DNA from: Chondrilla cf. caribensis
Lineage: Eukaryota > Porifera > Demospongiae > Chondrillida > Chondrillidae
Length of the DNA: 64,000 nucleotides
Reading direction: 5' to 3'
Assembly (NCBI GenBank): GCA_964020155.1
Contig: OZ026557.1
Location: forward strand, 2,052,501 to 2,116,500
Below the pieces are notes generated by a model. It was not told the origin of the DNA, made no database searches, and saw only the letters and a program-made list of their open reading frames with translations. The stretch's first letter is position 1. The number at the start of each line of letters is the position of its first letter. The position numbers were made by a program, and so were the translations under genes. Below, piece by piece: positions 19,401-28,400 of this stretch.

Positions 19401-22400
19401 TACTAAGAAAGCGAAATTTGGAAAGGTAACCATGTACGTACAAAGTGTATGGTACTCCAATAGCTTAGTCAGCCCAGAATCATCAGCACTCTGCCCCTTG
19501 GTTCCATTTGACAGTTTGTTTGAAAACAACCCTCGCTATTCAACTCTGTATAGAATCCATGCTAATCTGTGGAGGCTTACTGAACGTATTACGTACATAT
19601 GCACTGTACATATGTACCCGTACGTACATATGTATGTGCGTACATATGTTCTGCACATGCATGTGTTTGCAAATGAGATGTCCATATACACACTTACTCT
19701 CCTAAATACATGTGTACAGCATACGTACGTACATACATACGTATGTACGTTTGTATATTTATGTACATTAGTATGTACGTACATGAAGCATTGTTTGGTT
19801 TGTAGGAAACAGCACAAGGAGATGTTGGATAAAGAGGAACAGAGGAAAAAGGCCCTTTTGGAGGCAAAGAGAGCTCACGAAGTAACTGTAGCACTGATGC
19901 AAGAGTCTTTGGTGAAGGAGAGAGCTAGGAAAGAGAGCGAGGAAACAGAAAGTAGACAGTTGTTGGAGAAAAGAGTCAATGCTGTTTTGAGCCTGAAGAA
20001 GAATATCGATGCTCAGAGAGTGAGTGCTTATGATGTGTTATAGGGTTTTACTGGAGTTCAATGCAATGTGTTCTGTTTAGAGGGGATGCATATGTGGTGC
20101 CTACGATACATACGTATGTCTTAGCGTAATATGTGTGTCAACTGTGGTGAACCTACGTATGCTGCTCATGTAATTTGTGCAATAATTGTACCACACAATA
20201 GGAGATGATGAAGAAATCCCAATCAGCCAGGAAGTCAAAGATTGCTGCCACTTCTCAGAGAGAGTCGGAGTTGGATGTTGCCGATGTTATTAAGCAGAAA
20301 AGACTTGAAGAGTTCTCCAAACAGAAGGAGTGAGTACCTGTGTTTACATGTATGTACGTACATATGTACATATGTCATATGGACGTTTGGATTAATTTTT
20401 TATGTACGTACTCTTCAGGAAATTTGATCGTGTCAGGCGTGAGAGAGAGGTGGATATTGCTGATAAGTTGATCAAGGAAGAAGAACGTCTTAAGCAGATG
20501 AAAGAGAAACTGAACCAACCACATTGGAAGCCAAGGGACTCAAGCATGCCAACCAAACCTCAGGTTTGTCCTTGAATGAGAGATTAGACCCATCTGCGCA
20601 TATGCATATATTATGTTTTATGCAGTCTGATTATATGAATGTGCCTAAGTACATATGTACGTACGTATTTATGTTTGTACAGTATGTGTATTAATTGTGC
20701 TGTATTGTAATTGATGTATGTACGTATGTATGCAGAGCTCTCCCCAGGATTTGTCAAGATGTGACATTCCAGTAGCTTGCACATTGTATGCACTTGTGTT
20801 GTTTGCTGTATCACTGCAGATGATGGTAAAGAGAAGTAAAGCAACACAAAGGAAACAAGAGAGACAGAAGGAGAAGAGCAGTGTGGATGATGAAGAGAGC
20901 TCACAGGGTGTACAGAGTGATGGGCCTCTTCACTCGGTGGTCCTTGAAGAGAGGACTGTAGGTACAAGTGAAGTTGTCAGAGAAGAGACAGACAGGTGTG
21001 CTAGATTGTATGTATGTACATCAGGCACACATGTGATATGTACACTATACACATACGTATGTAGATACGTATGGGTGCACTTTTTATGTACATTGAGTAC
21101 TTATTTGTTTATGTACAGTGCATAGCATGTTGTTTGCTGTTTACATGTATGTACGTATGAATGTGTAGACCACTTGAGGAAGACAAAGTTATTCGTCCTG
21201 AGTTTGATGGTTTATGGAGTGGTCCAGTTGCCTCCACTGGTGTACCACGCCAACACGGCACTCCTGGTGGTGAGGACCCCGACGTTGAGAAGGAATACAA
21301 GTATACCATGAGCAAAATGGAACAGGTACACGCACACACGCACGCACACACACAAACACACACACACACACATACATGTGCATAAAAATACACACACGTG
21401 CTCACATGTATGTCTGTAACTGTGTTGTTTGTGTGTTTAAATGCACATATTTCATGATCCTTTTGAAACTGTAGGATATCTTGAAGAATCACCTGGAAAC
21501 TCAGCGCAAGTTGATTACTCAGAAGCAAGTGGTTGCAGGGATAGAGTTCAAAGTACGTACTGTTTGTTGTGCTAACATACAAAATATGTTTGTATGTACC
21601 TGCTTGTGCATGAATATGTACGTATGTAAGTATGTACATTAGATCAAGTATACTGATCATATAAGTACGTACATACAATAGTACGTATATGCGTACATAC
21701 AGTATACAGAGTGATAATAGAAAATATGATCATTTAGCATTATAATCTGGAACTCTGTATCTGTGATTCTTTTCACATGTATGTACTTATGTACGTATGT
21801 AAGTTCAGTATTTGTGTACGTACTATGGTGTGTGTACATACGTACATGCATGTCTATTGTTCATGTTACTATGATTGTATTTTGTAGGGACCAGCATTCA
21901 AGAGTAATCCAGAAACTATTGAGTTCAAGGTTGTTGCTGTGTTCATATGTCCACTGTTGAGATAACTACCCTCATATCGATATCCTTCCTCTGCATAGGA
22001 TTTTGAAGTTGGGAAGGAGTACAAGAGGACGGTACAACTCACCAACATCTCTTACACCGTCAATACATGCAAGATGGTTGGACTGTCGGAAGAACTGAAG
22101 GACTTCATCTCTATCAAGTATGTAATATCTACGTACGTACGTGTTTACATGAGTACGTACGTACGTATGTGTGTACATACATACATACAATACATGTATG
22201 TATGTACTATTCATGTACCTACAAACGTGCATGTGTCTGTATTTGTATTTGTTAATAGTGTCAGGTGTAACAATGTGTATACGTACGTATGTATACGAAT
22301 GTGTGTATGTGATTTTTATGTATACACATACGGTAGGCGTCAATAAAAAGTGGACGTAACGTAACGTAATTACACCGTAACGTTACGTAGTAATTCCGTA

Positions 22401-25400
22401 GCGCGATTCGTACTTCTACCGTATCTCGATCGTAGAGTAATCGCAATTCGATCGTAGTTCTTCTGTAGTTCAATCGTAACGTGATTGTAATTCGATCGTA
22501 GTTCTTCTGTAGTTCAATCGTAACGTGATTGTAATTCGATCGTAGCTTTTCCGTAATTCGATCCTAGTGTAATCGTAATTCGATCCTGTGGTAGTGTCAA
22601 CGTGATTCCTTCCGTGTGCGCCTATTTCGTTGGATGTACGTATAATATTATACGTAACTTGATGCAGAATGGTTTATTCGGAGTATTGCAAACAAAGAAT
22701 TCTATTTTGGTATTCAAAAGGCTTCAAAGCTCCCACCATTATGCAGAAAATGCATCAAGAAGGAATGTCCTGTTCAAGGCAGGGTATATATAAGCTCATC
22801 AAACGATATCAACTCTCGGGTAGCATTGCTAGGAAGCAGGGATCTGGAAGACCGTCCAAGGTGGTGCAAGAAATCAAAGACATTGTAGAAAGTAGGATGC
22901 AGGAAGATGACGAGACAACCGCTGTACAGCTGCACAAAGTTCTGGAAGAGAAGGGATATAATATATCTTTGAGCACTATTTTACGTTGTAGGAAGAGCTT
23001 GGGGTGGAACTACAGAGGATCGGCATACTGCCAGATGATACGAGATGTAAACAAAGAAAAGCGATTGGCCTGGGCCCGAGAACACCTCCATGATAATTTT
23101 AGCAATGTTATCTGGTCTGACGAGACAACTGTGCAAATGGAGAGCCATCGACGTTTTTGTTGTAGAAAGAATAGTCAAAAACCGAGATACAAACCACGGT
23201 ACGTTGGCAAAGATTTTCTATCATGCAAAACATAATTTAACTATAATAATACGTATAACTTGATGCAATCATTGTAGACCAAAACATCCTACTAAAGTTC
23301 ATGTGTGGGCAGGCATCAGCCATTCAGGGAGGACAGGTGCATGCATATTTGAGGGGACAATGGATGCACCATTATTTACTTCCATTCTTGATGGTACACT
23401 GCTCCCCTTCATTGAGGATAAAATGCCAACAGATCATCGCTTCATGCAAGACAATGACCCAAAACATACATCGAAGTATGCCCAGGATTACTATCAAAGT
23501 GCAGGAATCAACTGGTGGAAGACTCCTGCAGAATCGCCTGATCTGAACCCCATCGAGAACCTTTGGCATGAACTCAAAGAATACATCAGAAGAGTAGTGA
23601 AGCCCAAAGTCAAAGAAGAGTTAATCAGAGGAATACGAGAGTTTTGGACCACTGTAGATGAAGCGAAATGCCAGAAGTATATTGGACACCTGAAAAAGGT
23701 TTTACCAGCTGTGATCGAACGTGAGGGCAATGCCACTGGATACTGAACATCTGTATTTGTCTACTAACTATTCTTAAACTTGTAACGTAGTAAATACATA
23801 TATTATAGTACAGTAGAGTAATAACATACGTACGTATGTACATACATACGTATGTACATGTGTATGTACGTAACTTATGGTATTAAATGTACTCACGTAC
23901 GTACGTATATAGATGGCTACAAACATGCAAGAAAGTACATACGAACATATTACATATATACGTTGTTGTGTATAGAGAAGAATGTCATACGTAGATTACA
24001 ATGTCTTTCTAGCATTCTTGCATGCCTGGCCTATGGCATCCAGGCACGTCTTCCACACTCTCGTGTACTCTGCCGGGTTACTCCACATCCCCGGGAACAA
24101 ACTCTTCAGAGTATTCTTTATTCTTTCCAAGCCTAAAGGAGGCAGTGGTTGTTTGAGGCCTCTCATCCCAAACGGGGTGCTAATTGCCATAATGTCTGGC
24201 CCAAAAACAGCTTCTCTGGCCAGTTTAACTGCCAATCTGGAAATATTGCTATGCGTCTGAAGTTTAGGGTACTTTTGAAGTACTTCCTGAATGCTTAGAA
24301 GATGTCCTGATCCAACATTTTGTGAAGAGCTTGTGTTTAATATGTGTTGTGTGCTATGTGTGTCTATTGTGTCCAGCAGGTTAGCTGTATACTGTGTATC
24401 TAGTGTGTTTGATGTATATTGTGCATGAAGTGTATCCAGTGTGTTTGGTGTATATTGTGCATGCAGTGTATCTAGTGTGTTTGGTGTATATTGTGCATGC
24501 AGTGTATCTAGTGTGTTTGGTGTATGTGGTGTATCTGGTGTGATTAGTGCACTGGGTGTAATGGCTGCTAATGGTGCTGATACATGTGTATTGTTAGTTG
24601 GCACAGGTAGTTGATATGCTGACGGATTGCTTAGAATCAACATTTCCAGGTTGTAAATGCGAGTTTCAAGGCTCTTGTTTTGTTCTACTAATTCTGCTTG
24701 CTTTGTGACCAAGAGCTCTACCTGACTCTCTAGATACTGCACAGTAATTTCCAGCTGAAGAGGATCTGATAGAGACATGGAACTAGAGGATGAGCTGGAT
24801 TCATTCTGACTGTTGGACAACTCCATGTCTTCTGGTACTGCTGCAGTGGTTTCATCCTCATCTTCAACTGTAGCTGATGGCAAGCTTGCCTCACGGTCGC
24901 AGGTGTCATTATAAGGTGCTATGCATAAGATTTTCCCAGGTGCTTTCTCCTTTTTCTTCTTATTAGTATTTGCACTATTTTCCCTGTTACTGCATTTTTC
25001 ACTTTTATTACTTTTGTCCTCAATCTTGTTTGCCCTTCCTTCCTCGAGTAATTTACATTCATCTCTTTCAGCTTTTCGTACCTCCTCAATGCTCCCCTTC
25101 AGCTTCAAAATCCCAGTCAGAACCTGTCGCCCCACCTTGACTTTCACTTCTTTGCCAGGTTCAGTGGTGAGAATAATATCACTTTGCTTAACAATCGAAA
25201 CGGATTCTTCGTTAGGCCAATATACTAGGCTGTAAGATTTCCCATTGTCTGTTTTAAAGAGGGTGTTAAAGCACAAAGGTTAATTTTCAGGAAACCACAG
25301 ATTAATCGTTATCATAACAACTGACCAGCGTCCAAAGGTCGAGACTCCTTCAATAGGGTTCGGGCTGTCATACTTCGTGAAAACGTGCCGTTGAGCGGAC

Positions 25401-28400
25401 GGCTTACTTTACTTCATCGCTAGAAACCAAGTCACTAAATAGACAGGCGAAAGAGTCTAAGAGTCTAACAGCTGCTACAGTTCGGTCGTAATTCTATCGT
25501 AGTCCGGCCGTACTTGATATTCTATCGTAGTTCGGCTGTACTTGATATTCTATCGTAGTTCGGTCGTGATTCGATCGTGATTCTTTTGTAGTTAGGTCGT
25601 GATTCGTTCGTAGTTCAACTGTATTTTAAACGTAGTTATGGTAAATTCACCGCAGTTTTACCGTGATTACGACGTAGTTATACCGTATTACGATTACGAT
25701 ACGTCCACTTTTTATTGACGCCTACCGTATGTACGTTTGTGTGGTAGTTAATTTGTATATATGTACGTACATAATATATTGTATGTACTTGTTGTGTATG
25801 TACGTATATGTATGTACCTACTTATGTACATGTACATACGTAAGTATTTCTGTATATTTATGACAAGACATGCACACATACATATATATACGTATATATA
25901 TATATATATTTTTAGGTTCACTCCACCAGGCCTCATGTCTGCAGGAATAGCGTGTTCACTAGTTGTTACATTCGAACCACAAGTGAGTACCTGCATACCT
26001 ACCTTCCCACATACTGGATCATGCTGTATGTAATTTCCTCATAGATATAATAATTATTATTATATTACGTATGACACAAACGTAATATACCCATTCATAC
26101 GTACATACATATTAAATTTACAATATGGTACATGGTACATATGTATGATATGATATGTGTATACATCTACGTATGTACGTACGTGTATGTACATATGTAC
26201 ACTGTAGATTTCTGTGATACGTACCTATGTAAGTATGTACATACATATGTACTCTGCATACGTATGTATGTATGTCAATGTATGTTTTCTGTAAACTTGC
26301 TGTAGATTGATGAAGATCTTTTTGGTGAAATTGAGATGCTTGCTCAAACTGGTTCATTTTCAATTCCTATCAAGTGCTTGAAAAAGAGATGCATTGTAAG
26401 CTTATACATACGTATGTACCTACGTATGAACTGTACAGTATTAAATACACACTATGCTCTGTATTTCCATTTGTGTACTTATGTACATACGTATATACAG
26501 TACGGTTCAAAAAAAACCAAACGGTAATCTCCTTTACCGTTTTTCAGTTAACAGTTAACGGTTAACCGTTATCCGTTAACCGTTACCGGTAGTTTTTTCA
26601 TTGCGTAATCATTGGTACGCAAGTCTATATTACTAAATAACAGCTGCGAATTGCGTAACTCACGAACGATCCGTCGAAGAGTCGGTCTACTAGATCCAGG
26701 AAGACGGAGAGATGTTCCCATGCCTTTTGTGCTTTTGAATCGTTGCTCAAACACTCGCCTTCGATATTTTAAGACCTTAATTTTCAACGATTAAAAATTT
26801 ATAACGTACCATTGACGGTTATCCGTTAACGGTTATCGGTTAACGGTTACCAGAAATCAGGTAACTTTTAACCGAAAAGCGTTAACTGTTACCGTATTAA
26901 CAGGTAACTTTTATCCGGTAACGTTTAGTTTTTTTTGATCCGTACCGTACGTACGTATGTACATGTACATACAAATTTATTTATATGTTCGTACGTATTA
27001 TGCATATGTATTGAATGTACGTACTTAATCATATATTTTTCACTCTACTATACTTACTATAGGTTGAGATGGACCAGTGTGTAGTTGACTTTGACAGAGT
27101 GTGCATTGGAGAATGTGCCACCAGAAAGATTGTCCTCAAGAACATTGGTGCTCTTGGAACAGACTATCAAATAGCTAAGGTGTGTGCATTATTCTTGTCA
27201 ACTTGTAAGCTCAAATGTGTGTACCTACGTACATACGTGTGTACATACTTATTACACTTGTCTGTACATACCTATGTACATGGATATGCACTTGTGGATA
27301 CCGTAGAAGCATGTGATTTATGTACGTACTTATGTACGTACATACACAGTACATGCTGTTTATGTACATGTACTCACGTACTGTTCATGTTTGATTGGGA
27401 GGATTTAATGTTAAGGGTGTTTAATGATACACACGGCTACACACTCATTTACAAAAATTATTTCTATCGGTGCAAAGTGCAGTATGTAAACACCATCACC
27501 CATTGATATATGGCCTCACCCCTCATTGAAAGATAGCTACGTACATGTATGTACATATGTACATACATCTATATAGAATTAATACTGTATGTGTCAGTAT
27601 GTACATATGTATGTATATGTACGTAATATTAATATGTATGTACGTATGTATACGTACGTATGTATATGCAAGCATTAAATTTTATGTGCATTACATATGT
27701 ATGTACGTATGTAGCTACCATTGGTGGATGTCAGCCTAGCTGAACAAAGTGTACATGTTGAGAGAGAAGCCGTGGATGTGGATGACAAGCTCCGTGCAGC
27801 CACCCCCACTAGTGTGATTGTGCAAAGTGAAGAACAGCAAGAAAGTGTTGACCATGAACTGAAGGATAATGGGGTTGGTGTCCTTGATGTCAAAGAGAAA
27901 GATGACACTTCAGATGTGAAAGATTCAGTTGATGCTCAGCATAAGGGAGATGGGGTCACTGGTGAAGTTGGTCCTACGATTGAACTTTCCAAGCAGGGGC
28001 ATGACAGTGAACTCATTGAAGGAGGTGACAGGCCTCCAGACCCCACCGAGTCATCTCCACCTCCAGCTACTAGGCAGGATCCTGTCTCCAGGGAGTCGCC
28101 TCACCACCGCAGCTCTGAACAGAAAGGATTGCTCCAGCTTTACGACTGTGTCATCATTGACCCAGTATGTTTCAATGTTTATTCACGTGTGTACATACGT
28201 ATATGCATACGTATGTGCATACACATGTACGTATGTATTATAATTTTATTTATGTTTAGAGCTACGTACATGTGTTCTGCATCTACTGCTGTAGGAATCA
28301 GGACTTCTCGGCAGCCGCTCTGAACTCGTACTCCAGGTGACCTTCACTCCTGACAGACTTGGAGAGCTGGATACCACGCTGTCTGTTGACTTCTCTGATG

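Follow-up and report, generated by a model that had tools for sequence, protein, structure and literature searches.

A lineage of Tc1-type transposons in the sponge Chondrilla cf. caribensis carries a second gene coding for a BEN-domain protein

We have analyzed a stretch of 64,000 nucleotides from the genome of the sponge Chondrilla cf. caribensis (positions 2,052,501 to 2,116,500 of contig OZ026557.1, assembly GCA_964020155.1; hereafter the window), which contains a Tc1-type transposon at positions 22331-25727. Known Tc1-type elements usually carry the transposase alone. Here, a second gene coding for a BEN-domain protein faces the transposase within the same inverted ends. Our analysis indicates that this element belongs to an old lineage of two-gene Tc1 transposons in which the second protein is selected. 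By analogy with other two-gene transposons, we favor the view that the BEN protein of this four-clade lineage binds the ends of the element and helps or gates the transposase, and consider it rather probable.

Mobility and co-occurrence of the two genes

Two pairs of copies delimit the mobile unit. Those at C2:918837+ and C16:3374919+ are 99.5% identical across exactly TA...TA and not beyond, with unrelated flanks. The C8 and C10 copies, whose flanks are also unrelated, are 98.9% identical in a block that reaches the TA on the right side and stops 3 bases short of it on the left. Both genes lie inside the moved block in all four copies, and such two-gene copies at unrelated sites rule out a chance insertion or a host gene lying within the ends. 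The transposase frame of the C16 copy is probably broken, since its match to the transposase is split into two overlapping parts. A third copy of the C2 type (C22:1442200+) derives from an internal deletion, the two parts that remain being 99.2 and 99.9% identical. Size differences are also found in another near-identical pair (C14/C1), where the C14 copy has about 1.03 kb extra (L018, 2823-3853) and a 4-bp overlap on the right side.

Plain BLAST detected inverted ends enclosing both genes in five elements, each at a TA. When the TA was required, 19 of 35 regions had paired ends around both genes; among the other 16, several are truncated by the limits of the extracted DNA. The presence of TA at the ends of all 15 listed elements is no independent test, because it was a search condition; the ends themselves start with CGGTA, CAGTA, CGGTT or CAGGT. 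Of 15 two-gene elements, 14 measured 2.7-4.1 kb, the other being the C28 copy (1.9 kb), which looks shortened; the single-gene Tc1s of the same genome measured 1.33-1.37 kb.

The same association appears throughout the genome, which matches to the Wnt family (up to 264 bits) mark as that of an animal. Searching with the transposase gave 123 matches, of which the best 29 loci were extracted for analysis of their neighbors, and a BEN frame adjoined the transposase in all 29, using a profile built from the lineage's own proteins. The count based on Pfam is a cleaner test, because the BEN detector used for the 29 loci was seeded from those same loci: PF10523 matched 17 times in the genome, each time above the cut-off, and 13 of these hits lie close to a transposase match. 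The window BEN protein itself gave 19 matches (itself, eight to the BEN part, one to the N-terminal part and nine to a repeat linker), and all eight BEN-part matches adjoin a transposase match in convergent orientation. For a pooled adjacency test we took the best 90 of the 123 transposase matches (80 loci after merging) and 71 BEN loci, counting only matches that reached the BEN part and dropping those confined to the N-terminal part or the linker. A transposase match lay no more than 4 kb away from 46 of the 71 BEN loci, versus 0.36 expected; the other 25 had none at this distance. Transposase loci scoring at least 120 bits had BEN nearby in 40 of 48 cases (8 without), and those below 120 bits in 8 of 32 (24 without), although two of the 40 (C10:2231798 and C19:2285142) probably owe their BEN to a neighboring element. 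Gene orientation was convergent in 22, divergent in 23 and tandem in three, counts subject to the same neighboring-element error.

No BEN gene was found beside five intact but distantly related Tc1 copies (27-29% identity), which are single-gene elements. These controls stand for three families, because L090, L093 and L095 are copies of one; their flanks were extracted for 0.4-1.4 kb, and the statement for 4 kb is by coordinates. A first-pass annotation of the window, made from the sequence alone, had proposed checking whether both genes co-occur between the same ends in other copies: the 29 relatives and the moved blocks show that BEN is not peculiar to the window copy. No relatives were found in viral contigs, scanned with the BEN and transposase alignments, or in prokaryotic contigs, scanned with the transposase alignment.

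Some long open BEN frames have no transposase match within 4 kb: L072 (C2:6311766+, whose BEN scores 29.9 bits), C12:3713192, C5:5164284, C3:4552289 and C13:2884703. They may be domesticated or host BEN genes, or elements that have lost their transposase.

Phylogeny and selection

We built trees for 15 intact elements, omitting decayed copies and including one distant outgroup. Both the transposase and the BEN tree show the same four clades: A (the window element, C12, with C12b and C22), B (C2_3171255 and C10_2234881), C (seven elements with divergent genes) and D (C19_3031000, C3 and C4). Seven of 12 splits are common to both trees, one of them being a near-identical copy pair, and the five that differ have supports of 27-86. 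The two distance matrices correlate at 0.83, a value reached in none of 5000 permutations. Gene orientation follows the clades, being convergent in A, B and D and divergent in C. In clade B, elements on C2, C8 and C18 have a third frame of 213 amino acids between the transposase and the BEN gene (L013, 407-1045, minus strand; copies L014, L015 and L016), the four copies being 97-100% identical. It lies within the inverted ends in the C2 copy and had no significant match in Pfam; these are possibly three-gene elements or cases of nested insertion.

The ratios of nonsynonymous to synonymous change (dN/dS, by Nei-Gojobori) were for transposase and BEN respectively 0.077 and 0.111 between C8 and C2 (with dS above 1, near saturation), 0.215 and 0.260 between C1 and C16, 0.256 and 0.449 between C19 and C10, and 0.441 and 0.572 between C4 and C18; for BEN between C4 and C9 the value was 0.341. 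Pairs that differ by no more than three to seven changes carry no information (BEN 1.75 for C8/C10 and 0.57 for C2/C16; transposase 0.54 for C8/C10), and the only BEN ratio above 1, in C8/C10, comes from one synonymous and six nonsynonymous changes, too few to weigh. BEN dN/dS was thus 0.11-0.57 in seven of eight comparisons, the eighth being based on seven changes in total. This comparison among copies, also proposed in the first-pass annotation, indicates purifying selection on both genes.

Structure of the window element

The element is flanked by TA on either side (22329-22330 and 25728-25729), read from the sequence as the target-site duplication. Its 5' start is CGGTAGGCGTC and its 3' end GACGCCTACCG, each with the TA outside, and self-comparison gives an exact inverted repeat of 28 bp (22331-22358 on the plus strand, 25700-25727 on the minus strand) within a 39-bp pair of arms that is 97% complementary and includes some flank. 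Related fragments elsewhere in the genome have ends that set the boundary at the same TA, so that the limits first assigned to the element, with TA and 28-bp inverted ends, were exact.

The transposase gene is on the plus strand, in two exons (22669-23198, from the frame and Pfam, and 23278-23746 including the stop, from the frame, Pfam and the catalytic alignment) around a 79-bp GT-AG intron (23199-23277). Once spliced it codes for 332 amino acids, collinear with those relatives whose frame is uninterrupted. Pfam matches were DDE_3 (E-value 1e-19) and HTH_Tnp_Tc3_2 (2.3e-10). The catalytic residues are D151, D235 and E270, i.e., DD34E, with 34 residues between the second D and the E, a spacing found in all 17 transposases aligned (16 of the BEN type and one control). 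A profile from eight family transposases retrieved Sleeping Beauty (8.8e-42) and Mos1 (1.9e-12). The DD34E assignment of the first-pass annotation therefore holds, and the frame it called intact is so only after removing the intron. By its DD34E, TA duplication and short inverted ends, the element fits the Tc1 group of Tc1/mariner.

The second frame, on the minus strand and convergent with the transposase, is open for 427 codons; the 432 amino acids first attributed to an intact frame are obtained with a two-exon model (25371-25326 and 25248-23996). In this model a proposed 46-bp first exon (MTARTLLKESRPLDA, 25326-25371) and a proposed 77-bp intron (25249-25325) precede the main exon (23996-25248), which was delimited by the frame and by comparison with a related element, L058. 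The gene model of L058 has GT-AG introns and its start, MSLRTAIKASEIET, resembles the first exon proposed here. The window intron agrees in phase with the first intron of L058 and lies within a few codons of its position.

In the predicted protein, a Tudor-like domain is followed by a probable coiled coil and, at the C terminus, by a BEN domain. The N-terminal domain (25037-25246) is conserved, and its structural model has as best matches the Tudor folds of KDM4A-C, ARID4B and RBBP1. The probable coiled coil (24629-24760) was recognized by eye on the translation. Between it and the BEN domain is a tandem repeat of 12 amino acids (TPNTLDTLHAQY, 24386-24565), and in several related proteins other Thr/Pro-rich repeats precede the BEN domain.

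The BEN domain occupies the last 102 amino acids or so (23999-24304). The first-pass annotation had suggested a profile search with PF10523, and in this search the window copy itself stays below the cut-off of 23.2 bits (C-terminal 142 amino acids, 17.8 bits, E-value 0.0039; whole frame, 0.021). Among related proteins L071 (31.1 bits), L023 (28.1) and L032 (24.9) exceed it, L018 (19.3) and L027 (21.1) do not, and L059 has no match; in alignment A1, two of six members match at an E-value of 1 or below. Against PDB sequences the A1 profile alone gave nothing significant (BEND3 at 0.97, with mitoribosomal S17 higher at 0.2), while the wider alignment A4 detected BEND3 at 6e-7. Structural alignment of the BEN part returned BEN domains in its best 15 rows. 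The identification as a predicted BEN domain stands, on the relatives and the modeled fold. The N-terminal domain, the spliced gene structure and the subterminal arrays described below go beyond the original annotation.

Ends and insertion site

Inside both ends of the window element are arrays of 11-bp direct repeats (RTTCGATCGTA-like and CpG-rich) in the same strand sense, at 22424-22588 on the left, where autocorrelation at 11, 22 and 44 was above mononucleotide shuffles, and at 25469-25634 on the right, also above shuffles. In clade A, the elements C12, C22 and C12b have such arrays inside both ends, with a period of 11 (or 22) bp and above shuffled sequence, although the motifs differ (RTTCGATCGTA, ACTTCGAACGTA and CGTTGATCGACC). 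Clade B has GTTAAC arrays spaced 7 bp. The ends were CpG-rich in all 11 elements tested (8.4 and 8.0 CpG per 100 bp; coding sequence, 3.0; flank, 1.4). In addition, CpG was more frequent in the outer 100 bp of four clade C elements than in the stretch between their two genes.

The window element is the only full copy of its kind in the genome, besides end fragments and one short non-autonomous derivative (C18:4286849-4287460; L002 and L003). The latter matches its outer 438 bp (80%) and 226 bp (92%) and therefore spans most of both arrays. A search confined to the left side of the element detected, directly beside it, an exon of a CFAP74-like ciliary gene at 21999-22118 (PF24771, E-value 4.2e-15; CFAP74 chain, 1.5e-9). 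Since this exon adjoins the element, the insertion is probably in an intron of that gene.

Discussion

We found no description of a Tc1 with a BEN gene in titles and openings of abstracts from the open-licence PMC literature (Repbase was outside the scope of this search), in agreement with the first-pass annotation, which did not recognize this composition as described. It is thus a two-gene DNA transposon in a superfamily for which we found no record of such a composition, extra genes in Tc1/mariner as such being already known. Tc1 and Sleeping Beauty share with the window element the DD34E, the match to a Tc3-type helix-turn-helix, the TA duplication and the inverted ends, but elements of this type usually lack a second gene. 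Among Tc1/mariner elements with extra genes, the TBE elements of the ciliate Oxytricha have three frames under purifying selection (dN/dS 0.1-0.3), but the additional ones code for a 22-kD protein of unknown function and a 57-kD zinc-finger/kinase protein, in germline elements (PMC4724952). Mariner elements bearing Fanzor encode a second and even a third protein; these are however Fanzor1, an endonuclease or a methyltransferase, some in algal viruses, and are described as captures across several superfamilies rather than as one co-diverging gene pair (PMC3627910).

Closer parallels in organization are found in other superfamilies. PIF/Harbinger elements are also two-gene DNA transposons whose second protein is a DNA-binding factor (as predicted here), although with another transposase superfamily and with Myb/SANT/MADF instead of Tudor-like/BEN. 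Transposition of Harbinger3_DR requires both proteins, the Myb-like one binding to a motif of 9 bp in the subterminal region (PMC9710019). The CACTA element En/Spm (TnpD transposase plus TnpA) has, like the window element, subterminal repeats at both ends; these are bound by TnpA, which is required. It differs in its transposase and ends, three-base duplication and alternatively spliced gene, and the part of the source cited names no BEN protein (PMC2613891). As to the protein itself, BANP combines a coiled coil with a BEN domain, and its BEN domain, like that of BEND3, has a preference for unmethylated CpG motifs, which BANP selects only when oligomerized (PMC11472053). Factors of this type share that combination and the fold with the window protein, but are host transcription or chromatin factors, not transposon-borne.

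An accessory role, first suggested in the original annotation as end binding, control of the transposase or targeting of integration, is plausible by these analogies. In the version that we favor, the BEN protein would oligomerize through its coiled coil and bind repeated sites inside the ends, which in clade A would be the 11-bp CpG-containing arrays. Once there, it might pair the ends with the transposase, or recruit and gate it, much as TnpA acts in CACTA elements and the Myb-like protein in PIF/Harbinger. Possible contacts of the Tudor-like domain with histones would link activity or target choice to the state of chromatin. Several observations limit this proposal. Apart from marginal values, no clear periodic arrays were found in C13, C10 or clades C and D, and 11-bp arrays as a general feature of the lineage had to be rejected, only C12, C22 and C12b being clearly periodic. 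The five single-gene controls are nearly as CpG-rich as the two-gene elements (8.2 versus 10.2 in the outer 100 bp). CpG-rich ends were consequently rejected as a signature of BEN elements and are not used as evidence of BEN binding, since they appear to be a general feature of Tc1 ends in this genome.

The lack of clear binding arrays in clades C and D would fit a protein that acts outside cut-and-paste, protecting or timing the element by binding chromatin and countering or imposing host silencing. The predicted chromatin-reader architecture (Tudor-like plus BEN) agrees with this role, and most human BEN proteins function in connection with chromatin (PMC11472053), but the arrays that clades A and B have at either end are a better fit for end binding, and we regard this role as unlikely, if the strongest of the competitors. 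Still less likely in our opinion is a role in targeting, in which the protein would tether the transposase to selected chromatin and so choose insertion sites; the matches of the N-terminal model to Tudor folds speak for it, and the CFAP74-like exon beside the window copy is neutral either way.

The remaining explanations deny the second gene any role. Outside this lineage BEN is known as a chromatin domain of host proteins, and the gene could have been captured from the host as a passenger useless to the element; this was already disfavored by the BEN frames in all 29 of the best relatives, the clades shared by both trees and the BEN dN/dS values, and is very improbable. A Tc1 inserted by chance beside or around a host BEN gene would account for the single window and nothing beyond it. 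The transfer of both genes in one block to unrelated sites already refuted this, and with the excess of adjacent loci over expectation its probability is practically nil.

Tc1/mariner elements serve in textbooks as the example of a one-gene transposon, and widely used tools for gene transfer have been derived from them. The conservation through four clades of a second gene, whose product is predicted to bind DNA, would mean that some Tc1 have evolved partner-dependent transposition or control, in parallel to CACTA and Harbinger. The two-gene Tc1 provides a ready system for testing how a transposon benefits from an accessory protein that reads chromatin, and raises a concrete question about the origin of animal BEN factors. 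A much bolder reading, which we consider a long shot, is that this is an ancient, obligate two-gene lineage whose BEN protein, a chromatin reader, supplied some or all animal BEN transcription factors by domestication; as context, 46 of the 71 BEN loci are beside a transposase and several long BEN frames (C2:6311766, C12:3713192) are not. If true, animal BEN factors would be domesticated accessory proteins of transposons, like the domesticated Myb-like proteins of Harbinger.

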